Origin: Flavobacteriaceae bacterium
GTDB lineage: Bacteria; Bacteroidota; Bacteroidia; Flavobacteriales; Flavobacteriaceae
Length of the DNA: 64,000 nucleotides
NCBI GenBank assembly: GCA_030835825.1
Contig: JAURRA010000016.1
Coordinates: 1-64,000, forward strand
Direction of reading: 5' to 3'
The translations under genes and the position numbers were made by a program. Shown piece after piece: positions 9,179 through 64,000 of this stretch. Each line of letters starts with the position of its first letter. Position 1 is the stretch's first letter. The notes below the pieces were generated by a model. The model saw only the letters and a list, made by a program, of their open reading frames with translations, did no database searches and had not been told where the DNA came from.

Positions 9179-9694
9179 GTTACACCCTCCCCGCTTCTAA
9201 CTATTTACGGTATGGTTTTTGTGGCTTACTTTAAGCCCTTAACCTGCTTATTTTGAAAGACCTAGACATTCTCGCCCCTAACCTACGGAATTACTCGTTT
9301 GTAAATAATTTGTCGCATCGCCAAGCCATAGCTCAGGAGAACTTCTATACTTCTTGTGGTATCGACATGATGGATGATGTCAATCAAAAGTTTGATTTAT
9401 TACCAGTGGGTCTTTGAAGACCGCAGGATAGCGTCAAAGGTTATACCATCTTACCGTTAGATTAAGCCATGCAAAGTGTTACGGCAAGTGATCTTTGACT
9501 ATGAATATAAGATAATGAATGAGACTACCGAGGGAATTGTGACAAAGGGGTTTTGAGTATCCACTAACAAGGCATGCTCAAAATAGCCACAATAAAATCG
9601 CCATACCGTCTGATATTCATTGAAAAACTCTATATTTGCGGTCGTGAAATGAAAATCATTTCCTGTACATAATAATCATTGAAATAATATTGGC
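9179..9694. other. Non-coding stretch with a 54-codon ORF and the rpsO promoter
   Basis: No recognisable gene fills this 516-bp gap. A small hairpin (GGCTTA/TAAGCC, 9223-9237) follows accD without a strong U-tract. A plus-strand frame from TTG 9253 to TGA 9417 encodes 54 residues with a coding-like composition that I cannot assign; it may be the remnant of a decayed gene. The last part holds the rpsO -7 box. Otherwise nothing was seen. Confidence 0.5.
9631..9638 (+). promoter_or_regulatory. -7 box (TATATTTG) for rpsO
   Basis: TATATTTG matches TAnnTTTG and is followed by a leader of about 50 nt before the rpsO ATG at 9695. A convincing -33 element is missing. Confidence 0.45.
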
Positions 9695-9964
9695 ATGTAT
9701 TTGACAAAAGAAAAAAAACAAGAATTGTTCGAAAAGCACGGTAATGCTGCAAGCAATACTGGTTCTGCCGAAGGACAAATCGCCTTGTTCACATTCAGAA
9801 TCAATCACTTAACAGAGCACTTAAAAAACAATCGTAAAGATTTTAATACTGAGCGTTCATTAGTGAAATTGGTAGGAAAACGTCGTTCATTGCTTGATTA
9901 TTTGGTAAAGAAAGATATCTTGAGGTATCGTGCCATTATCAAGGAACTTGGATTGCGTAAATAA
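9695..9964 (+). CDS. rpsO: 30S ribosomal protein S15
   Basis: S15 binds 16S rRNA in the central domain, nucleates platform assembly and bridges to the 50S subunit. The 89-residue length equals that of E. coli S15. Family segments include [21 protein letters not shown], with the rRNA-contacting helix, and [10 protein letters not shown] near residues 64-73. The gene has its own -7 promoter box and ends in a strong intrinsic terminator. The classic rpsO-pnp order is kept, but the two genes are separated by the terminator and about 140 bases. The ATG has no Shine-Dalgarno sequence; the upstream bases are A/T-rich, as is usual in this phylum. Confidence 0.97.
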
Positions 9965-47315: not shown

Positions 47316-47400
47316 TCTAATTGAATTTAAAAGTGCTGTTGTGAATTAAGGTCTAGCTATCCTTCGACAACCAATAGCGCACTCATGCTGTTAGTATAAA
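47316..47400 (-). promoter_or_regulatory. Candidate leader upstream of rpsD
   Basis: This 85-base gap lies in an operon where neighbours are otherwise 1-24 bases apart. A small hairpin can be drawn on the minus strand from GCTAT and ATAGC (47356-47378), extended by a T-G pair. S4 autoregulation from the alpha operon is known in other bacteria, so a leader is plausible, but the structure is modest. Confidence 0.3.
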
Positions 47401-52683: not shown

Positions 52684-53235
52684 TTAATTCTTTTTAAAAG
52701 GTAAACCTAGTTCGGTTAATAATGATTTCGCTTCTTTGTCCGTTGATGCAGTGGTCACAAAAGTGATATCCATTCCGTCAATTTTATTAACCTGATCAAT
52801 ATTGATTTCAGGGAAAATGATTTGTTCAAGAACCCCTAAGCTATAATTTCCGCGACCGTCAAAACCAGTAGCTTTAATTCCGCTAAAATCTCTTACACGA
52901 GGCAGCGCTGTGGTGACCAGACGATCCAAAAATTCGTACATACGTTCACCGCGAAGCGTTACTTTCACACCAATTGGCATGCCCTTACGAAGTTTGAACG
53001 ATGCGACATCTTTCTTAGAAATAGTCGTTATGGCCTTTTGACCAGCAATTCGAGTGATTTCATCAGCCGCATAATCGATAAGTTTCTTATCAGCTACGGC
53101 GGCTCCAACACCACGCGAAATTACAATTTTCTCCAATTTTGGCACTTGCATTACACTCTTGTAACCAAATTCCTCTTTAAGGGTGGAAATAACGCGATCC
53201 TTATATTCTTGTTTTAATCTTGGTACGTATGACAT
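52684..53235 (-). CDS. rplE: 50S ribosomal protein L5
   Basis: L5 binds 5S rRNA and contacts the P-site tRNA and S13. The 183-residue protein shows [56 protein letters not shown] and the C-terminal [22 protein letters not shown]. Length is normal (E. coli 179). It lies 5 bases after rplX and one before rpsN. Confidence 0.98.
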
Positions 53236-53240
53236 GACGA

Positions 53241-53552
53241 TTAGATTAAGTCATTAGTTTTCTTAGCATATCGAACTTTCTTGTCTTTTTCCATGCGATA
53301 TCCCACTCTTGTAGCGGCACCATCTTTAGAAATAAGTGAAAGATTTGATAAATGCAAAGCTGCTTCCTTTTCAATAATACCTCCTTGAGGGTTTTGAGCA
53401 CTGGGTTTATTATGTTTTTTTACCATATTAACCCCTTCTACAATTGCCTTAGATTTATCTTTAGTGATTTTCAAGATTTTACCTTCGGCACCCTTGTGAT
53501 CGCCTGCAAGCACGCGAACTGTATCTCCTGTTCTTAGTTTAATTTTTTTCAT
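53241..53552 (-). CDS. rplX: 50S ribosomal protein L24
   Basis: L24 starts 50S assembly and lies at the tunnel exit. The 103-residue protein has the KOW motif [35 protein letters not shown] and the following [28 protein letters not shown]. It starts 12 bases after rplN and ends 5 before rplE. Confidence 0.98.
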
Positions 53553-53564
53553 CTCTTTATCAAC

Positions 53565-53933
53565 TTATAGTACCTCAGGGGCTAGTGAAACGATTTTCAT
53601 AAATTGCTTGTCACGCAACTCCCGAGCAACAGGACCAAAAACACGCGTCCCTCTCATTTCTCCAGTTGGGTTCAACAACACACATGCATTGTCATCAAAG
53701 CGGATGTATGATCCATCGGGACGGCGCACCTCTTTGACTGTGCGCACCACCACTGCGGTAGAAACTGTTCCTTTTTTTACGTTACCATTGGGCGTAGCTT
53801 CTTTAACAGTGACAACAATTTTGTCACCTACAGAAGCGTAACGACGCTTGGTCCCTCCCAAAACACGAATAGTCAAAACCTCCTTGGCTCCTGTGTTATC
53901 CGCTACTTTTAATCTAGATTCTTGCTGTAACAT
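53565..53933 (-). CDS. rplN: 50S ribosomal protein L14
   Basis: L14 lies on the 50S interface, contacts 16S rRNA and is the target of the silencing factor RsfS. The 122-residue protein has [20 protein letters not shown] at the start, [15 protein letters not shown] and the end [24 protein letters not shown]. Length equals that of E. coli (123). It starts one base after rpsQ. Confidence 0.98.
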
Positions 53934-53934
53934 A

Positions 53935-54192
53935 TTATTTCGCTCTTTCGATAATTTCTACAAGTCTCCAGCACTTTGATTTACTCAAAGGACGGGTTTC
54001 CATTATTTTCACTGTATCTCCAATGTTGCAGTCATTAGTTTCATCGTGAGCCACATACTTCTTCGTTTTCAAAACGAATTTTCCGTACATGGGATGTTTC
54101 ACTTTTTTAACTTCGGCAACCACAATAGACTTTTGCATCTTATTGCTGGTGACTACACCGATACGCTCTTTTCTTAAATTTCTATTTTCCAT
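53935..54192 (-). CDS. rpsQ: 30S ribosomal protein S17
   Basis: S17 is a primary binder of the 16S rRNA 5' domain. The 85-residue OB-fold protein has [34 protein letters not shown] and the signature region [31 protein letters not shown]. It lies 16 bases after rpmC and one before rplN. Confidence 0.98.
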
Positions 54193-54208
54193 AGCTCAGA
54201 TCGATACT

Positions 54209-54400
54209 TTATTGTATGGCTCTATTAGTTAATTCCGTTGCAAGACGTGCAATGTTTCTGCGTGTCTTACGCAATGACAATGGATTCTCCAACGGTGTCA
54301 ATGCATGTGTCATTTTCATAGTTGCGTATTCACCTTTTAAGGTGCTTAGCTTTTCTTCCAATTGCTCTAAAGACAATTCTTTAATTTCTGACTGTTTCAT
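54209..54400 (-). CDS. rpmC: 50S ribosomal protein L29
   Basis: L29 is a helical protein at the tunnel exit that helps dock signal recognition particle and trigger factor. The 63-residue protein has MKQSEIKELSLEQLEEKL, the central MKMTHALTPLENPLSLRKTRRNIARL and matches the family in length. It lies 10 bases after rplP and 16 before rpsQ. Confidence 0.97.
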   Translation of the reverse strand: MKQSEIKELSLEQLEEKLSTLKGEYATMKMTHALTPLENPLSLRKTRRNIARLATELTNRAIQ

Positions 54401-54410
54401 TTTCGGTCAA

Positions 54411-54830
54411 TTATGCTTCGAAATCTCGAGCGGTGATGAATCTGGTTTTAACAGGAAGCTTTTGAGCTGCTAACCGCAGTGCCTCTTTAGCTACCTCAGC
54501 TGATACGCCTCCGACTTCAAAAAGAATTCTTCCTGGTTTTACAACAGCAGCGTAATATTCAACGGCACCTTTACCCTTACCCATACGAACCTCAAGTGGT
54601 TTTTTAGTAATCGGTTTATCAGGAAATATTTTGATCCAGAGTTGTCCTTCACGCTTCATGAAACGAGTAGCTGCTATACGCGCTGCCTCTATTTGACGTG
54701 AAGTAATGAAAACAGAATCTAAAGCTTTGATACCAAACATTCCATTTGACAACAAATGTCCTCGACCCGAATTACCTTTCATTCGGCCCTTTTGTAACTT
54801 TCTGTATTTAGTTCTTTTCGGTTGTAACAT
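54411..54830 (-). CDS. rplP: 50S ribosomal protein L16
   Basis: L16 organises the A-site tRNA elbow region of the 50S subunit. The 139-residue protein has [19 protein letters not shown] at the start, [48 protein letters not shown] and the C-terminal [23 protein letters not shown]. It starts 17 bases after rpsC. Confidence 0.98.
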
Positions 54831-54847
54831 GTCTCAATCCGATTAAA

Positions 54848-55561
54848 TTATTTACGTGCGCGACGATTTCCACCGCTGCGTCCTCCTGGTTTTGATTGCT
54901 TGGTTGAAAGGCCTACTAAGGGCGATAACTCACGCTTTCCATAGACTTCACCTTTCATGATCCACACTTTGATCCCTAAACGGCCGTATGTGGTATGTGC
55001 TTCTACTAGGGCATAATCAATATCTGCTCTAAAAGTAGACAAGGGAATACGACCTTCTTTGAAGTGTTCGTTACGCGCCATCTCAGCTCCGTTTAATCGA
55101 CCACTGATTTGGATTTTGATACCCTCAGCATTTAAGCGCATTGCCGCTACTATGGCCATTTTAATAGCTCTTTTGTATGAAATACGACTCTCAATTTGAC
55201 GAGCAACACTCATTCCTACCAAATAAGCATCTACTTCTGGACGTTTTATTTCGATGATGTTCAATTGAACCTCTTTGTCCGTAAGTTTTTTAAGTTCCTC
55301 TTTCAGCTTATCAACCTCTTGACCACCTTTACCAATGATGATACCAGGACGCGCTGTTGTAACTGTAACAGTAACTAACTTTAGTGTTCTTTCAATAATA
55401 ACACGTGAGACACTTGCCTTAGCTAAACGCGTGTGAATGTATTTGCGGATTTTGTCGTCTTCGGCTAATTTATCTCCGTAATCATTGCCACCATACCAGT
55501 TGGACTCCCAACCACGGATGATACCTAATCTATTACCGATTGGATTCGTTTTCTGTCCCAT
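54848..55561 (-). CDS. rpsC: 30S ribosomal protein S3
   Basis: S3 lies at the mRNA entry channel and has helicase-related function with S4 and S5. The 237-residue protein has [25 protein letters not shown], a KH type 2 domain with [16 protein letters not shown] (about residues 70-90), the C-terminal domain with [31 protein letters not shown], and a short basic tail ([12 protein letters not shown]). It begins 3 bases after rplV. Confidence 0.98.
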
Positions 55562-55564
55562 GAA

Positions 55565-55975
55565 TTAAATAGTTTCAGTATTAATAGTTTGACCTAGAAC
55601 TAGCGTCACATGATTGGAACGTTTTCTGATGCGGTGAGCGCGACCTTGTGGTGCTGGACGCAAACGCTTCAACATGGTTCCCCCATCTACACGAATTTCT
55701 TTAATGAACAAGTTAGCTTGCTCAGGGTCTGACCCTTCGTTCTTTGATTGCCAGTTGGCAATGGCAGACAACAACAAGGTTGACAAAGGTCTCGATGCGT
55801 GTTGCTTGCTAAACTTCAAAATATTGAGTGCGTCTTCAACTTGCTTACCGCGAACTAAATCTACAACCAAACGCATTTTACGCGGCGAACTTGGATAATT
55901 GTTTAGTTTGGCGAATGCAACATCTTTTTTATCGGCCTTAATAGTTTCAGCCATTTGATTTTTACGACTTCCCAT
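55565..55975 (-). CDS. rplV: 50S ribosomal protein L22
   Basis: L22 lines the peptide exit tunnel and its hairpin loop forms part of the macrolide region. The 136-residue protein has SPRKMRLVVDLVRGKQVEDALNIL and the hairpin region VDGGTMLKRLRPAPQGRAHRIRKRSNHVTLVL. The first residues (MGSRKNQMAETIKADKKDVA) form a short extension; an internal ATG at residue 8 (55954) is an alternative start. It lies 5 bases after rpsS. Confidence 0.97.
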   Translation of the reverse strand: MGSRKNQMAETIKADKKDVAFAKLNNYPSSPRKMRLVVDLVRGKQVEDALNILKFSKQHASRPLSTLLLSAIANWQSKNEGSDPEQANLFIKEIRVDGGTMLKRLRPAPQGRAHRIRKRSNHVTLVLGQTINTETI

Positions 55976-55980
55976 AGCTA

Positions 55981-56259
55981 TTATTTTTTGCCTTTATTTT
56001 TCGCACCTGCATGACCTCTAAAGGATCTTGTTGGTGAAAACTCTCCCAATTTGTGACCTACCATATTTTCAGTGACATAAACTGGAACAAACTGGCGACC
56101 GTTGTGAACCGCAAAAGTTTGACCTACAAAATCAGGTGTAATCATACTGGCACGTGACCAAGTTTTAATAACCGTCTTTTTATTTGAAGCAACATTGTCT
56201 GCTACTTTCTTTTCCAGCTTATAGTGAACGTAAGGTCCTTTTTTTAATGATCTTGACAT
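55981..56259 (-). CDS. rpsS: 30S ribosomal protein S19
   Basis: S19 lies in the 30S head beside S13. The 92-residue protein has [73 protein letters not shown], read in parts as the full family pattern, and a lysine-rich end. Length equals E. coli S19. It lies 6 bases after rplB. Confidence 0.98.
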
Positions 56260-56265
56260 ATTGTT

Positions 56266-57090
56266 CTATTTCTTACGACGTTCAATAATGAATTTACTGC
56301 TTGCTTTATTCTTGTTACGCGTACGGTATCCTTTTGCAGGGATGCCATTGCGTGAACGAGGATGACCACCAGAAGCACGACCTTCTCCACCACCCATGGG
56401 GTGATCGACAGGGTTCATGGCGACAGGTCGCGTACGTGGACGACGACCCAACCAACGGCTACGTCCTGCTTTACCAGAAACGAGCAATTGATGATCAGAA
56501 TTGGATACAACGCCAATAGTCGCAAAACAATTGGCCATAATCATTCTTGTTTCACCCGATGGCAACTTAATGGTAGCATATTTTCCATCTCTAGCCATAA
56601 GCTGAGCAAATGTACCAGCCGAACGAGCTAAAACAGCCCCATGACCCGGTTGCAACTCAACGCATGAAATGATAGTTCCTAAGGGAATTTCACTCATTGG
56701 CATAGCGTTTCCAATTTCAGGTGGAGCACCTACTCCAGAGACAACAGTCTGACCAACAGTCAAACCATTTTGAGCTATAATGTAACGCTTCTCACCATCT
56801 TCATATTTTACCAAAGCAATGAATGCAGTTCTATTAGGATCGTACTCAATAGAGACTACTTCAGCTGGCATAGACAGCTTGTTACGATTGAAATCGATGA
56901 TTCTGTAACGTTTTTTGTGGCCACCACCGATGTGACGCATCGTCATTTTACCAGTGTTGTTACGACCACCTGAACGCTTCAAAGGACTAATCAAGCTCTT
57001 TTCGGGCTTGTCAGTAGTGATGGCGTCAAAGCCATTCACAACTCTAAATCGTTGTCCGGGGGTTATCGGTTTTAATTTTCTTGTTGCCAT
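56266..57090 (-). CDS. rplB: 50S ribosomal protein L2
   Basis: L2 is a highly conserved protein near the peptidyl transferase centre. The 274-residue protein has the OB-fold N-terminal half ([20 protein letters not shown]), an SH3-like middle ([20 protein letters not shown]) and the C-terminal [24 protein letters not shown], which contains the essential His. Length is the family norm (273). It starts 9 bases after rplW. Confidence 0.99.
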
Positions 57091-57099
57091 GTTGACTAC

Positions 57100-57390
57100 T
57101 TATAAGTTAGCGTAAAGATCCAAGGTTTCGCCTTCGGCCAACTGGACGATAGCTTTTTTAACAACGGCGCTTTTACTGCGTTGCAAACCTGTTTTGGTGT
57201 GACGTGTTCTACGTTCGGCTCGAACAATAATAGTTCTCACCTTTTCTACTGACACTCCGTAAGCGGATTCTACAGCATTTTTTATTTCAATTTTATTGGC
57301 CTTTGGCGCTACTTCAAAGCTGTAACGGTTGTAACGCTCTGTAGCAGTCGAGGCTTTCTCAGTAATAATAGGTCTGATTACGATACTCAT
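57100..57390 (-). CDS. rplW: 50S ribosomal protein L23
   Basis: L23 is the main docking site for trigger factor and SRP at the tunnel exit. The 96-residue protein has IRPIITEKAS at the start, YSFEVAPKANKIEIKNAVESAYGVSVEKVRTI and the end IVQLAEGETLDLYANL. Length is typical. It starts 7 bases after rplD. Confidence 0.98.
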   Translation of the reverse strand: MSIVIRPIITEKASTATERYNRYSFEVAPKANKIEIKNAVESAYGVSVEKVRTIIVRAERRTRHTKTGLQRSKSAVVKKAIVQLAEGETLDLYANL

Positions 57391-57397
57391 GACTTCA

Positions 57398-58027
57398 TTA
57401 TTTGCTTAAATTGGTTTCGATTCCTGCAATGGCACTTTCACACAAAACCAATGCATTGGTATTCATTATGGCGTAAGTATTCAATTCAGAATTTACAATG
57501 ACTTTCGAATGGGTCAAGTTACGTGACGAGAGATATAAATTCTTGTTAACATCAGAAGTCACAAACAAGGATTTTTTATCGGCTATATTCAATGCCGTCA
57601 AAATGGCTTTAAAATCTTGAGTTTTTGGCGCATCCATATTGAAGTCTTCGACTACCATAATAGCCTTCTCACTCGCCTTCAAGCTTAGTGCAGATTTCCG
57701 CGCTAAACGTTTGGTGTTTTTATTTAACTTAAATCCGTAGTTTCTTGGTCTTGGACCGAAAAAACGACCTCCACCTCTAAAAACACCAGACTTGATACTT
57801 CCTGCACGAGCGGTTCCAGTACCTTTTTGTTTTTTGATTTTCCGGGTACTTCCAGTAATTTCAGCCTTTTCTTTGGCTTTATGAGTCCCTTGACGCTGAT
57901 TAGCCAAGTATTGCTTCACGTCCAAATAGATGGCATGATTGTTAGGCTCAATTACGAACACGTCTTTCGGTAAATCTACCGAACGACCAGTGTCATTTCC
58001 TTTGATATCTTTAACTGCTATCTTCAT
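57398..58027 (-). CDS. rplD: 50S ribosomal protein L4
   Basis: L4 lines the exit tunnel with its extended loop; in gammaproteobacteria it also represses the S10 operon. The 209-residue product from ATG 58027 has [20 protein letters not shown], the tunnel loop GSTRKIKKQKGTGTARAGSIKSGVFRGGGRFFGPRPRNYGFKLN (read in parts) and a normal globular C-terminus. The frame runs 15 codons further upstream into rplC, but those residues are not family-like. The ATG overlaps the rplC stop by one base (TAATG), indicating coupling. Confidence 0.98.
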   Translation of the reverse strand: MKIAVKDIKGNDTGRSVDLPKDVFVIEPNNHAIYLDVKQYLANQRQGTHKAKEKAEITGSTRKIKKQKGTGTARAGSIKSGVFRGGGRFFGPRPRNYGFKLNKNTKRLARKSALSLKASEKAIMVVEDFNMDAPKTQDFKAILTALNIADKKSLFVTSDVNKNLYLSSRNLTHSKVIVNSELNTYAIMNTNALVLCESAIAGIETNLSK

Positions 58028-58644
58028 TACTTGGTAATTAATACGTAAGCGTTTTTGTGACCAGGAACACAACCTTTAACAACAAGTAGGTTTTTCTCTG
58101 GCATAACTTTCAACACTCGCAAGTTTTGAATAGTTACTGTTTCATTCCCCATACGACCAGCCATTCGCATGCCTTTAAAAACACGTGCAGGATAGGACGC
58201 AGCCCCAATAGATCCTGGCGCTCTAAGTCGGTTGTGCTGACCGTGTGTGGCCTGTCCAACACCAGCAAAGCCATGACGCTTTACTACACCTTGAAAACCT
58301 TTACCTTTTGATGTTGCCGAAACGTCGACAAATTCTCCCTCTCTAAAAAGATCAACGGTGATAACATCACCGAGTTGGTATTCCTCATCAAAATCTTTGA
58401 ATTCAGCTACTTTCGATTTGACAGTTGTTCCAGCTTTCTTGGCATGACCCAATTCGGCTTTAACGGCACTTTTTTCTGTCTTGTCATCGAAACCTAACTG
58501 AAGGGCAGCATAGCCGTCCACTTCTTCGGTTCTGACTTGGGTAACAACGCAAGGACCCACTTCAATAACGGTACAAGGAAGATTCTTTCCATTCTCGTTA
58601 TAGATGCTGGTCATTCCAATTTTTTTTCCAATTAACCCAGACAT
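58027..58644 (-). CDS. rplC: 50S ribosomal protein L3
   Basis: L3 is an early assembly protein whose loop reaches the peptidyl transferase centre. The 205-residue protein has [19 protein letters not shown] at the start and [50 protein letters not shown], which contains the methylated-Gln region and central loop. Here it is the first gene of its transcription unit: a promoter-like box and structured leader lie upstream, and rpsJ, its usual neighbour, is 724 bases away behind a terminator. Confidence 0.98.
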
Positions 58645-58669
58645 TGTATAATATTTATTGTTTTATTTT

Positions 58670-58702
58670 AAAAAATTAGGGTCGAAATATAATTTCAACC
58701 CT
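58670..58702 (-). promoter_or_regulatory. Terminator-like hairpin in the rplC leader (possible attenuator)
   Basis: On the minus strand AGGGTTGAAAT pairs with ATTTCGACCCT (11 bp with one G-T) around a TAT loop and is followed by AATTTTTT. It lies 26 bases before the rplC ATG, that is between promoter and gene. The form is that of an intrinsic terminator, so it may be a conditional attenuator. Confidence 0.55.
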
Positions 58703-58751
58703 GAGATTATATTTTTTCCGTTTTTCCTTTGCCTCAAGCGCCGGACATGTA

Positions 58752-58801
58752 ACTCATTGAAAATTAATGAGTAAAATACCGCAACAGCATATCTTGCTGT
58801 T
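58752..58801 (-). promoter_or_regulatory. Two further stem-loops in the rplC leader
   Basis: AACAGCA/TGCTGTT (58783-58801, 7 bp) would form at the very 5' end of the leader, and ACTCATT/AATGAGT (58752-58772, 7 bp) next. With the hairpin at 58678-58702 they give a three-stem leader of about 160 nt. Confidence 0.45.
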
Positions 58802-58810
58802 TTTGGAGCT

Positions 58811-58818
58811 GCAAATGT
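58811..58818 (-). promoter_or_regulatory. -7 box (TACATTTG) for the S10-spc-alpha operon
   Basis: The minus strand reads TACATTTGCAGC, and the first eight bases match TAnnTTTG. The same 12 bases occur at the rpsL promoter. The -33 position (CGTG) is a weak match. Transcription would start near 58804. Confidence 0.6.
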
Positions 58819-59312
58819 ATTCTTTTTTTCTTTATTTACACGCTATTGAGCTATTATTTTACAGGAATTAATTGAAGTATAGGTTATAATTCAGGCAATC
58901 ACTATTTGACACCTATCCACCAAAACTTCGACAGTCTTAATTTCTGGAGTAGTCAAATCAATTGTGGGCCGAGAAAGTAGTTGCTGTCCAGACAAATCAG
59001 GCAAACCTTTATACCCAATCATAATTTTGACTAACAGAATGGGTAGTAATTGAAAGGAACAGGTTTTACAAAAATATACAAGCGAGGAAAACATAGCATG
59101 GGCTTAAGATTACTGTTTCTGGAACAGGACAGCTAATCTGACGGTCCTCGCAGTAAAAATTTATAATAATGGTTGCTGTTCACATCAGCTAAGGCATTCC
59201 CCTACCGAACTTCTTAACAATAACCAGACTAGGTGCAATCGAAAATTAAAGTTGTCACGCCTTCATCTCCTCTCCCGCGATCAAAAACCACAAACCATTT
59301 TAAGTTTTGATA

Positions 59313-59345
59313 AAAAAAAAGAACTGCAGTTGCAGTTCTTTAATA
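59313..59345 (-). terminator. Intrinsic terminator after rpsJ
   Basis: On the minus strand AAAGAACTGCA pairs with TGCAGTTCTTT around a minimal loop and is followed by a run of T. It ends the rpsL-rpsG-fusA-rpsJ unit about 25 bases after the rpsJ stop. On the plus strand no T-run follows, so the direction is clear. Confidence 0.85.
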
Positions 59346-59368
59346 ATTTTAAAACCTAACAGGCCCAA

Positions 59369-59674
59369 TTACACTTTAATTTCGACCTCTACGCCGCTAG
59401 GTAATTCCAATTTCATTAGCGCATCAATAGTTTTACTTGATGAACTGTAAATGTCCAAAAGGCGTTTGTATGAACTCAATTGAAATTGTTCTCTAGATTT
59501 TTTGTTCACGTGAGGCGAACGCAAAACAGTAAAGATTTTTTTGTGCGTTGGTAATGGAATTGGACCAGTAACAACAGCTCCAGTACTTTTTACCGTTTTA
59601 ACAATCTTCTCAGCTGATTTATCAACCAAATTGTGATCGTAAGATTTTAGTTTAATTCGAATTTTTTGACTCAT
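59369..59674 (-). CDS. rpsJ: 30S ribosomal protein S10
   Basis: S10 works in the 30S head and also as NusE in transcription antitermination. The 101-residue protein has [25 protein letters not shown] at the start, the loop [28 protein letters not shown] and the end [16 protein letters not shown]. It lies 19 bases after fusA and takes the place tuf often has. In many genomes rpsJ leads the S10 operon; here it ends the str operon and is followed by a terminator. Confidence 0.98.
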
Positions 59675-59693
59675 GTCTTAAAAATTTAAAGCC

Positions 59694-61814
59694 TTATAGG
59701 CCTTTAGCTGCTTTAATTACTTCTTCAGATATATTACTTGGAGTTTCGGCATAGTGCGAAAATTCCATTGTGGAGGTGGCACGACCAGATGACAGTGTAC
59801 GTAAAGAAGTTACATAGCCAAACATCTCCGAAAGAGGCACAATAGCTTTTACAACCTTCGATCCTGCACGATCACCCATATCGTTAACTTGCCCACGGCG
59901 TCGGTTCAAATCTCCAACAATATCACCCATGTTTTCTTCAGGAGTCAAAACTTCTAGCTTCATCAAGGGCTCCATGATTACGGCTTTGGCAGCCTTAGCA
60001 GCAGCCTTAAATCCTAATTTGGCAGCTAGCTCGAATGACAATTGATCCGAATCCACATCGTGGTAGGATCCATCGGTTAGTGTAACTTTCATTGCGTCTA
60101 CTTCGTAACCTGCCAAAGGCCCATTGACCATAGCCATTTTGAATCCTTTTTCGACAGAAGGAACAAATTCTTTTGGGATATTACCACCCTTGATTGCAGA
60201 AACAAATTCCAAGCCAACCTTTCCTTCTTCGGCCGGTTCAAGTGTAAATACAATATCAGCAAATTTACCACGACCACCTGATTGCTTTTTATAAACCTCT
60301 CTATGATCGGCTTTTTGGGTAATGGCTTCTTTATATTCTACTTGCGGCTGCCCTTGGTTAACTTCGACTTTGAACTCACGTCTCAAACGATCAACGATAA
60401 TATCGAGGTGTAGCTCACCCATACCAGAGATGATTGTTTGTCCTGAGGCCTCATCAGTACGAACTGTAAAAGTCGGATCCTCTTCGGCCAATTTAGCCAA
60501 AGCCATTCCCAACTTATCGACATCCGCCTTGGTTTTTGGCTCGACAGCAATACCAATTACTGGATCTGGAAAATCCATGCTCTCCAAAACAATTGGCGCC
60601 TTTTCGTCAGACAACGAATCTCCAGTTTTAATATCTTTAAATCCTACAGCTGCACCAATGTCACCAGCTTCGATGTAATCGATAGCATTTTGTTTGTTGG
60701 AATGCATTTGATAGATACGTGAAATACGTTCTTTTTTACCAGATCTGTTATTCAAGACATAGGACCCAGCATCTAAACGACCAGAATAGGTGCGGAAAAA
60801 TGCCAAACGACCTACAAAAGGATCGGTTGCAATTTTAAACGCTAAGGCCGCAAAAGGCTCTTTAACGTCAGGCTTGCGAGAAATCTCCACACCTGTATCA
60901 GGATGGGTTCCAACAATTGCTTCTTTATCGACTGGCGAAGGTAAATAGCGGCAAACAGCATCTAAAAGAAACTGAACTCCTTTGTTTTTAAAGGCCGATC
61001 CACAAACCATAGGTATAATGGACATGTCCATGACCGCAGCACGAAGCGCTGCATGAACCTCATCTTCGGTAATAGAGTCTTCATCTTCCATGAATTTCTC
61101 TAGAAGATTTTCGTCATAACCAGCAACTTCCTCGATCAAAAGAGCGCGAAATTCTCTCGCTTCCTCTTTCATATCTTCAGGAATATCAATTTCGTCAAAA
61201 GTGGCTCCTAATGAATCTTCATGCCATACAATAGCTCGGTTTTTTACCAAATCGACAACGCCTCTAAAATCGGCTTCATCACCAATTGGTAAAACGATTG
61301 GTACAGCATTGGAACCTAGCATTTCTTTTACCTGCTTACAAACAGCCAAAAAATTAGATCCTTGACGATCCATCTTGTTGACAAAGCCCATACGTGGTAC
61401 TTTATAATTGTCGGCTAATCTCCAGTTAGTTTCAGATTGCGGCTCGACACCGTCCACTGCACTGAAAAGGAAAACTAATCCGTCAAGAACACGCAAGGAA
61501 CGATTTACTTCTACGGTAAAATCAACGTGACCAGGAGTATCAATAATATTGAAATGGTATTTTTGAGCTTCTGCAGTAGGCTTTCCATTTTCCATAGGAA
61601 ATTCCCATGTACAAGTTGTAGCAGCAGAGGTGATGGTAATACCGCGCTCTTGCTCTTGTTCCATCCAGTCCATTGTAGCTGCACCATCATGCACTTCTCC
61701 AATTTTATGAGAAACACCTGTATAGTATAAAATACGCTCTGTAGTGGTTGTTTTACCTGCGTCAATATGCGCAGCGATCCCAATATTTCGGGTGTATTTT
61801 AAATCTCTTGCCAT
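59694..61814 (-). CDS. fusA: Elongation factor G
   Basis: EF-G is the GTPase that drives translocation. The 706-residue protein has the full five-domain layout: G domain with [15 protein letters not shown] (about 17-31), [19 protein letters not shown] and NKMDR; domain II near 310-400; domains III to V with [18 protein letters not shown] and the C-terminal [21 protein letters not shown]. Length is standard. It begins 3 bases after rpsG, the normal str order, and is followed by rpsJ. Confidence 0.99.
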
Positions 61815-61817
61815 TTA

Positions 61818-62294
61818 TTAGAATCTAAAATGTGAAAACGCCTTGTTCGCCTCGGCCATTTTGTGCGTATCCGTTCTTTTCTTCACAGCTGCTCCTTCTT
61901 CTTTAGCCGCTGCAAGGATTTCGTTCGCCAGTTTCATAGCCATTGATTTTTCGTTACGCTTGCGAGCATAACCGATTAACCATTTCATAGCAGTAGAGAT
62001 TTTTCTGTCTGGACGAATTTGCATTGGAATTTGAAATGTAGCACCACCAACTCTGCGGCTTCTCACTTCGACGTGAGGCATAACATTAGACAAAGCATCC
62101 TTCCACACTTCTAAAGCAGTTTTCTCTTCATCAGTTTTTTTGGATTCAACCACATCAATGGCATCGTAAAAAATCTTAAAGGCAACCGATTTTTTTCCTT
62201 CCCACATCATCATGTTAACAAATCGTGTAACTAACTGATCGTTGAACTTTGGATCTGGAAGTAACGGTCTCTTTTTGGCCTGTCTTTTTCTCAT
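61818..62294 (-). CDS. rpsG: 30S ribosomal protein S7
   Basis: S7 organises the 3' domain of 16S rRNA and contacts the E-site tRNA. The 158-residue protein has [54 protein letters not shown] and a C-terminal end at [22 protein letters not shown]. Length is normal. It lies 24 bases after rpsL and 3 before fusA. Confidence 0.98.
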
Positions 62295-62318
62295 TTAAGT
62301 ATTCTGAAAATTACTGTA

Positions 62319-62693
62319 TTAGTTTTTTGGTCGCTTTGCGCCATATTTTGAACGTCGTTGCGTACGACCTGCTACACCAGCGGTGTCCAGCGCCCCACGC
62401 ACGATATGATATCTCACACCTGGAAGGTCTTTTACCCTTCCTCCTCTTACCAAAACAATGGAGTGTTCTTGTAAATTATGACCCTCTCCTGGAATGTAAG
62501 CATTGACTTCATTACCATTTGTTAAACGCACACGAGCCACCTTACGCATGGCGGAATTTGGCTTCTTAGGAGTGGTTGTATATACACGTGTACAAACTCC
62601 TCTTCTTTGTGGACATGAGTCTAGGGCTGCCGATTTGCTTTTCTTTACAATCTTCGACCGACCTTTTCTTACTAACTGTGAAATTGTTGGCAT
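62319..62693 (-). CDS. rpsL: 30S ribosomal protein S12
   Basis: S12 lies at the decoding centre and sets translational accuracy. The 124-residue protein shows [12 protein letters not shown], the loop [21 protein letters not shown] with the lysine linked to streptomycin resistance in its usual susceptible form (KKPNS), [34 protein letters not shown] and the second such lysine region. It is the first gene of the str unit and has a textbook promoter 44-74 bases upstream. Confidence 0.98.
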
Positions 62694-62736
62694 AATTCTT
62701 TTACAAAATTTGTTTTTCCTCCATATAAAAGGGCTG

Positions 62737-62767
62737 CAAATGTAGAAATTAAAATTGTTAATTCAAA
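62737..62767 (-). promoter_or_regulatory. Consensus Bacteroidota promoter for rpsL (TTTG-N19-TACATTTG)
   Basis: On the minus strand TTTG (62764-62767) is followed after exactly 19 bases by TACATTTG (62737-62744). This is the full -33/-7 consensus of the Bacteroidota primary sigma factor, the best match in the window. The box continues GCAGC, as at the rplC promoter. Confidence 0.88.
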
Positions 62768-62861
62768 CATCGGCTATTTAATTTTTCTTTTTCTTTAAGT
62801 TTTTCGCAAAACTAAATTAAAACCTTCATTTTTGCGTTAATAAAACCACCGAGCTGCACTA

Positions 62862-64000
62862 ATGGGAGTTAAGCACATCTTTTCGACTGTTTTGATATTG
62901 ATCGCAACATCTGCGCTATCCTTCAGTCAGAATTTTACCTTAGACATCCAAGGTGATTCTGATGACGACAGTCAATATATAAGAACTTTAACAGATTCCA
63001 TCGAAGTATCTTCAAAACGACAAGTTTCATTTTTCATTTCAACTTTAAATTCTCGCCTTCAAGCCCAAGGATATTTAGACGCACAATTTCTTGTCGACAC
63101 TACCGCTGCAAATATGGCTAAGGTTAAAGTGAAATTAGGTTCTCAAATCCATGAGGTGAAACTTCTGAAACCTTCAAACGAAGGCCAACTCGATTATTGT
63201 AGACAGGTACTGCGTTGTGAGACCGACAGTGTGGTGATTGCTTTTTCACATATCCCTAATTACCTGCGGGACTTAACCCAGCAATTGTCAGAGCAGGGTC
63301 AACCATTTGCTAAAGTTCAATTGACAAATATTCAAAGACGTTCAGATAAGGGGTTGCACGCAGCATTGAGCGTAGTGAGTTCAAACAGCAGAAAACTAGA
63401 CGCATTAGTGGTCAAAGGTTATGATAATTTCCCTCAATCGTTTCTAAAATACTATGCTAATCTCAAAATAGGCCAAACTGCTAATCCTGAAGAACTCAAC
63501 AAAAGGGTAAATCGATTGAATCAATTAGGCTTCGCCGAAGTAGTGAAAGCGCCTGCTATATTGTTTGCAGAAGAAAAAACGAGTCTATATATATATGTCT
63601 CTAAAAACAAAGCCAACAGGTTTGAAGGATTCTTGGGTTTTGGCAATTCTGACGACAACAATAAAACTGGCATTTTTGGGGAAATTGATTTGATGCTAAT
63701 CAATAATCTGAATTATGGTGAAGTAATGCAATTCCGCTATTTAAATCAGGCGAATGGCCAAACAGAATTTAACTTTAACATGACCCTCCCCTACTTGGCC
63801 GGAAGTCCCATGAGCTTAGCTTTAGGGTTGCATATTTTCAGAAAAGATTCACTTTTTCAAAATAGTAGTCAAACTGTTGGACTTAAATATCAACGACATC
63901 CAAACTGGCAGTATCAATTGTCTTGGGAGACCAATCAGTCCGCAAAAATTGAGGAAAATAATGACGGAATTGAAAATTTCAACGGTCACTTTTGGGGTGT
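62862..64000 (+). CDS. POTRA/Omp85-like outer membrane protein (partial, runs off the right edge)
   Basis: A plus-strand frame opens at ATG 62862 and stays open for 379 codons to the end of the window. It begins with a signal peptide (MGVKHIFSTVLILIATSALSFSQ). A short N-terminal POTRA-like part follows, then a clear POTRA pattern at about residues 180-250 (LDALVVKGYDNFPQ, LKIGQTANPEELNKRVNRLNQLGFAEV), and then barrel-like strands starting FEGFLGFGNSDDNNKTGIFGEIDLML. This is the architecture of TamA/BamA/ShlB-type proteins, without a lipobox, unlike TamL. The exact subfamily needs the missing C-terminus. It is divergent from rpsL across 168 bases. Confidence 0.8.
   Translation, partial: MGVKHIFSTVLILIATSALSFSQNFTLDIQGDSDDDSQYIRTLTDSIEVSSKRQVSFFISTLNSRLQAQGYLDAQFLVDTTAANMAKVKVKLGSQIHEVKLLKPSNEGQLDYCRQVLRCETDSVVIAFSHIPNYLRDLTQQLSEQGQPFAKVQLTNIQRRSDKGLHAALSVVSSNSRKLDALVVKGYDNFPQSFLKYYANLKIGQTANPEELNKRVNRLNQLGFAEVVKAPAILFAEEKTSLYIYVSKNKANRFEGFLGFGNSDDNNKTGIFGEIDLMLINNLNYGEVMQFRYLNQANGQTEFNFNMTLPYLAGSPMSLALGLHIFRKDSLFQNSSQTVGLKYQRHPNWQYQLSWETNQSAKIEENNDGIENFNGHFWG

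Follow-up and report, generated by a model that had tools for sequence, protein, structure and literature searches.

The S10 leader of Escherichia coli, in which uL4 exerts autogenous control through premature Rho-independent termination (PMC10931766, available part), belongs to the same gene cluster as the element described here; it precedes rpsJ, however, whereas the Flavobacteriaceae element is situated between rpsJ and rplC. The rplJL leader of Bacillus subtilis, which responds to L10(L12)4 and combines an intrinsic terminator and an antiterminator with a structure further upstream that favors termination when the protein is bound to it (PMC10931766 and PMC4538822, available parts), is alike in its working, but differs in operon, ligand and phylum, and no homology is claimed. 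A survey of r-protein leaders (Eckert and Weinberg 2020, PMC7247131) describes S4, S15 and S16 leaders in Flavobacteria and an L13 leader in Bacteroidia, which resemble the present element in being lineage-restricted, in serving r-protein genes and in belonging to the same phylum; among the rows listed in the accessible portion of that survey, the sole L4 leader is in Archaeoglobi and none stands before rplC in Bacteroidota. Neither trait of an E. coli-type S10 leader, i.e., a position before rpsJ as first gene and a relationship in sequence or structure, is found in the element, and in E. coli K-12 our models R1 and R2 have no match between rpsJ and gspB (R1 gives one match, 6.8 bits, in rpsS, and R2 nine matches of up to 9.8 bits). 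To our knowledge, a competing antiterminator is no part of the model for the E. coli S10 leader.

Our present data make it probable that the element is a cis-acting transcription attenuator of rplC-rplD-rplW-rplB and the genes beyond, most likely an autogenous r-protein leader; a large part of all ribosomal proteins is encoded by the genes behind it. The window, i.e., the whole stretch of 64,000 nucleotides that was analyzed, comes from an assembly of 1.62 Mb, and its minus strand carries what we take to be, from the protein sequences, rpsL, rpsG, fusA, rpsJ, a 724-nt gap, rplC, rplD and the further genes of the S10 cluster, in this order. The first gene after the element is rplC (uL3; 58030–58644, ATG at 58644), followed by rplD (uL4), and all leader features, the coordinates of which were checked by script, lie on the minus strand. 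The rpsJ-rplC gap of the window (58645–59368) is the longest among the 82 carriers in which rpsJ was found, where this distance ranges from 119 to 724 nt with a median of 164 nt and is at most 200 nt in 64 loci; a 67-residue ATG frame inside it (58891–59094) is probably noise.

The whole element spans about 80 nt upstream of rplC (58750–58670, minus strand), and the hairpin that had been reported is its 3′ part. It reads, in order, ACAUGUC, hairpin P1, GAAAAACGG, the antiterminator arm and the terminator, with the consensus ACATGTCC-P1-GGAAAAACGG-AAAATAC-ATTCAGGGTTGAA-nGTATTTT-GACCCTG-(AA)TTTTTT and a short variable spacer after ACGG. By regular expression and then alignment, it was located ahead of rplC in 84 of 98 distinct loci, which represent the source genome, three relatives of its genus and 94 other Flavobacteriaceae genomes (the family search covered 100 genomes, four of which gave no rplC, and locus L001 duplicates L002). 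In comparison with dinucleotide shuffles, the window leader has the more stable fold (z −2.66), two of 200 shuffles being as good.

The core, ACAUGUC..P1..GAAAAACGG (58718–58750), is the most conserved part of the element and is proposed as a candidate protein-binding site; the original prediction had missed both this part and the antiterminator arm at 58714–58706. Hairpin P1 (58725–58745), which has a UCC/GGA base and two inner pairs, stands between the conserved ACAUG and AAAACGG. Six of its eight pairs show two-sided changes in the MAFFT alignment and 74.8% of cells are paired; the base and the two inner pairs hold, and the middle is often unpaired, two of the middle pairs being open in 62 and 69 of the 84 sequences. 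Alignment A1 probably has four sequences (L078, L080, L081 and L086) shifted within P1, which lowers their P1 counts. P1 belongs to the minimum-energy fold in 71 of the 84 loci and is missing from it in 13, with a mean probability of 0.75; the window itself gives 0.26, and here P1 is outside the minimum-energy fold from each of three starts. The window fold shows, in addition, a loop/UCCG-CGGA pairing that involves ACGG and needs a CCG that is absent from many loci.

The start codon within ACATG, present in 83 of the 84 loci, would suit a leader-peptide attenuator in which a short frame beginning there steers the hairpins. The frame is not conserved, however, its length varying from 2 to 42 codons with a stop after two codons in 25 of the 84 loci, and a leader peptide was rejected as barely conceivable. 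Likeness of the core to 23S rRNA, sought with model R2 in four loci with 23S genes, gave a best score of 8.7 bits (E 3), and pattern matches, e.g., CATGTCC in L103, failed under the covariance model. Similarity to an rRNA site, which is frequent among r-leaders and not required of them, is hence not found, and mimicry does not name the ligand.

Downstream of the core, an intrinsic terminator is predicted before the first gene. The 11-bp stem, 3-base loop and U-tract claimed before rplC are confirmed at 58702–58670: AGGGTTGAAAT (58702–58692), a TAT loop (58691–58689) and ATTTCGACCCT (58688–58678) form a hairpin (58678–58702) with one G-U among its pairs, and the tail AATTTTTT (58670–58677) provides the U-tract, 25 nt from the rplC ATG. 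Over the 84 loci, the U fraction is 0.75–0.87 at positions 3–7 after the last G-C pair and 0.13–0.39 at positions 11–30, the tail being U-rich at positions 3–9 and A-rich further on. In the terminator helix, 92.9% of cells are paired. The terminator is weak in the CCUUGAAUUUUAA-type group, where the U-tract consists of four U that are partly paired. The hairpin alone proves little, since it heads a list of 15 terminator-like sites in 53000–64000, where shuffling expects 9.7; it is family-wide conservation and covariation that carry the case.

A different role for the hairpin would be that of a translational leader or a processing site, in which it protects or occludes the mRNA. Sequestration of the ribosome-binding site is known among r-leaders (PMC7247131, accessible portion), and the rplC start lies 31–238 nt past the hairpin in the different loci. 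This start is outside the conserved pairs, however, and a U-tract joined to mutually exclusive helices is the signature of transcription attenuation, which leaves a translational leader very improbable.

P1 and the terminator taken together change on both sides in 17 of 20 pairs (118 cells versus 44.4 on shuffling, reached in 0 of 500 shuffles). Standard pairs occupy 85.7% of their cells, none of the 500 shuffles attains any of five measures, and sliding the partner by one to three columns lowers the paired cells to 26–56%; the shuffles ignore relatedness, whereas the sliding keeps it. Lack of covarying stems in relatives had been set beforehand as a refutation of the prediction, and the stems do covary.

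A second helix competes with the terminator. Its 5′ arm, AAATATAAT (58706–58714), is A-rich and lies behind ACGG; its 3′ arm, ATTATATTT (58685–58693), overlaps the loop and the upper stem of the terminator. The complementarity of the two arms shifts in step between loci, as in AAAUAC/GUAUUU, AAAUAUAAU/AUUAUAUUU, CAAAAUAA/UUAUUUUG, AAAACAAU/AUUGUUUU, AGAAAGAUAC/GUAUUUUUCU and others. Over 71 distinct pairs, arms from the same locus pair at −5.26 kcal/mol versus −3.50 kcal/mol for permuted arms (0 of 2000 permutations), and the helix measures 7.8 bp versus 6.8 bp (0 of 5000). The expected number of antiterminator pairs is 7.3 with a locus's own arms, 4.9 with arms swapped between loci and 1.9 with a shuffled arm. 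An alignment fitted to the helix (A3), which leans towards the antiterminator and includes a single antisense row that is spurious (L086, 24.9 bits), has two-sided changes in seven of seven pairs (52 cells versus 10.8 shuffled), and its covariation score drops from 0.27 to 0.009–0.056 on sliding; the pairing itself stays at 88–89% at slides of −2 and −3 (296 and 137 of 566 cells). Column counts in the unfitted alignment are mixed, with 3 two-sided pairs versus 2.8, 11 pair types versus 11.0 and 20 cells versus 8.1 shuffled, because the helix slides in register.

Folding of the growing transcript from ACATG gives a transient antiterminator with a probability above 0.5 in 83 of the 84 loci and a later terminator above 0.8 in 72 (at or below 0.8 in 12), the one replacing the other after a median of 7 nt; the window reaches 0.95 for the transient antiterminator and 0.96 for the final terminator. 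At equilibrium the antiterminator wins in L049, L058 and L066. Since the A-rich arm covaries with the terminator loop and 3′ arm, two mutually exclusive folds are conserved, and the antiterminator helix appears, from these substitution patterns, to be under selection. A pseudoknot in which the A-rich arm pairs with the hairpin loop while the lower stem persists is judged unlikely on steric reasoning, because in many loci the two 3′ arms directly adjoin each other.

The attenuation of the S10-spc-alpha genes suggested by the original prediction thus gains support: P1, terminator and antiterminator covary, and the competing helix, which the first reading had missed, makes attenuation a stronger proposal. 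We consider it clearly improbable, in comparison, that the hairpin is a plain partial terminator that fixes the ratio of rpsJ to the downstream genes and involves no regulated switch. The location of the element inside a short rpsJ-rplC gap in most loci would agree with such a role; a partial terminator needs, however, no conserved ACAUGUC..GAAAAACGG block, no P1 and no covarying competing arm, and rpsJ of the window already has its own terminator-like hairpin at its 3′ side (59318–59341), between rpsJ and the leader.

A binding-like core, an adjoining antiterminator arm and a terminator make up the arrangement of a repressible attenuator. Once polymerase had left P1 behind, the A-rich arm that follows ACGG would form the antiterminator with the hairpin loop and its upper 3′ side; after a few more nucleotides, the terminator hairpin, being longer, would displace it and, together with the U-tract, would stop transcription before rplC. 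In the simplest form of control, an r-protein encoded by the operon and present in excess of rRNA would bind the ACAUGUC-P1-GAAAAACGG block and mask the adjoining antiterminator arm, with the result that the terminator forms. The element shows one trait of autogenous r-leaders, namely a conserved RNA structure at a constant place ahead of r-protein genes. The first candidate for the protein is uL4, because it exerts such feedback on the enterobacterial S10 operon (PMC10931766, available part); by this analogy uL4 is a possible ligand of the attenuator, and a tentative one.

The same attenuator might also obey another signal, i.e., a general factor, polymerase pausing, transcription speed linked to ppGpp, or another RNA-binding protein. 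With rRNA mimicry not found, the ligand is proposed from gene neighborhood only, and the rimP-leader offers a precedent for a conserved attenuator that has no larger sensor element (PMC2965389, available part). The P1 core, however, is present exactly once per genome, at rplC, in 10 of 10 genomes tested, and this number and location fit feedback by an operon product better, so that a signal other than an r-protein is unlikely.

Transcription of the leader could start at a −7 box of the Bacteroidota type, the consensus of which is TAnnTTTG. The box in the window, TACATTTG, was present as claimed, with coordinates corrected by one base (58819–58812, not 58811–58818); it recurs in all four loci of the genus, 69–77 nt upstream of the core, and is the probable promoter of the leader at the genus level, its −33 element being weak by eye. 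Scanning from rpsJ to the element, or over the last 400 nt if rpsJ was not found, detected an exact TAnnTTTG in 8 of the 84 loci, including all four genus members; given this number, the promoter box is outside the conserved element. Between terminator and rplC, exact boxes, the sole promoter type sought, occur in 0 of the 84 loci. Read-through is therefore probably needed for rplC, and if TAnnTTTG is the main promoter signal, the terminator has to be passed by any polymerase that transcribes the S10 cluster. An arrangement in which the hairpin terminates rpsJ and a new promoter serves rplC was rejected on the same count.

The three stem-loops announced between this box and rplC all exist, with the qualification that sequence conservation is limited to the last of them. 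Stem-loop 1 (AACAGCA/TGCTGTT, 58783–58801) is confined to the genus, its arms being matched in two of the 84 loci, both of them from there. Stem-loop 2, named P0 (ACTCATT/AATGAGT, 58752–58772), adjoins the core and keeps its position, whereas its sequence differs among genera. In the 73 loci with room for P0, folding gives a mean z of −2.49, with 61 loci below −1 and 44 below −2; the space is absent in the other 11 of the 84 loci, where it amounts to 10–11 nt only.

Carriers and non-carriers of the element occur side by side in Flavobacteriaceae. The 14 of 98 loci that have no element show rpsJ-rplC gaps of 2–93 nt and score at most 14.6 bits with model R1, filters off. A further 27 loci were read from 28 genomes, one of which was without rplC: six from Flavobacteriaceae, i.e., five of genus g100 (presumably Flavobacterium, which is a guess) and one of genus g109, four from family f5, and 17 from other orders of the class. 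The Flavobacteriaceae and f5 loci among them are without the element (at most 14.5 bits), so that the operon, as in the 14 loci above, can do without it; the 17 loci of other orders have gaps of 5–74 nt and, by eye, no similar structure.

Draws at higher rank used strict filters, and absences in them are not exact. R1 matches were obtained in 29 of 296 genomes of the order draw, 24 of them Flavobacteriaceae (47.9–95.3 bits) and five outside (30.4–36.4 bits), and in 21 of 295 genomes of the class draw, four of them Flavobacteriaceae and 17 outside (at most 40.2 bits). All 13 Flavobacteriaceae loci examined from the two draws have rplC just downstream. Spread beyond the family was considered for 23 weak outside matches (at most 40.2 bits) and rejected: none of the 23 stretches, four of which are shortened by contig ends, contains rplC, and the matches are taken as chance. 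Because rplC follows in 13 of 13 loci inside the family versus 0 of 23 outside, the element is taken as restricted to Flavobacteriaceae among the genomes sampled.

Among named genomes, the exact pattern occurs at at least 118 loci, at least 11 of which have a core that also occurs in the family and order sets; in 114, a same-strand rplC follows 47–183 nt downstream, whereas in the remaining four the sequence ends 1–67 nt past the match, with rpsJ just upstream. Two exact matches carry other labels, i.e., L206 in a Rhodobacteraceae MAG and L226 in a Chlorobiota MAG. The closeness of their neighboring genes to those of the window (rplC 87% identical in L206; rpsJ 99% and fusA 91% in L226) suggests that both are misbinned Flavobacteriaceae contigs.

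The original prediction knew of no described leader that the structure matches, and Rfam 15 likewise has no match at or above the gathering threshold at the element, sub-threshold chance matches aside. Rfam 15 also gave no match to the element in 19 carriers and one non-carrier, in 9 carriers and 11 non-carriers, or, at E 0.1, in 10 carriers. In the open-access literature, covered by titles and the starts of abstracts, neither a leader before rplC in Flavobacteriaceae nor an account of the control of this operon in the family was encountered among the papers listed, and the accessible portion of a transcriptome paper on F. psychrophilum (PMC9723704) does not mention an rplC leader. As far as Rfam and the open-access literature tell, the element is so far a new RNA family of a known regulator kind. 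The GUCCY-hairpin (Weinberg 2010, PMC2864571), reported in the available part of its source from Bacteroidetes and Proteobacteria with RNA evidence '?' and without an Rfam accession, is like P1 in name and phylum when compared by description only, and it may be an earlier sighting of P1. Recognition of the element would let annotation identify a leader that is absent from Rfam.

Different structures stand upstream of rplC in neighboring groups. Three g100 loci (L144, L145 and L146) share another conserved leader, with a promoter-like TACTTTTGCAC followed by a hairpin that has CUCCC and GGGA as its closing strands; this leader has no R1 or Rfam match. In family f5, a promoter-like AAATTTGCACACTCA is present in four of four loci (L148, L149, L150 and L152) and a closing stem ATTTTAGG..CCTGAAAAT in three of them; this leader also has no R1 or Rfam match, and rpsJ was not found within about 1.5 kb upstream. 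As neighboring groups carry conserved structures of their own at this position, the element adds a further case to the question of why r-protein leaders are rebuilt per lineage. A more specific proposal would be a new family particular to Flavobacteriaceae, acting as a bistable antiterminator/terminator switch within the str-S10 gene row, between S10 and L3, that is thrown by a novel autoregulator, e.g., uL3 or S10, and replaced by unrelated leaders in sister lineages; we regard this combination as doubtful.

Within Flavobacteriaceae, three loci without the element (L008, L067 and L083) contain different hairpins between rpsJ and rplC, that of L008 with a CTCTTTTT tail. Elsewhere in the window, Rfam r-leaders are found at 47335–47372 on the minus strand (S4-Flavobacteria) and at 9631–9697 on the plus strand (S15-Flavobacteria).
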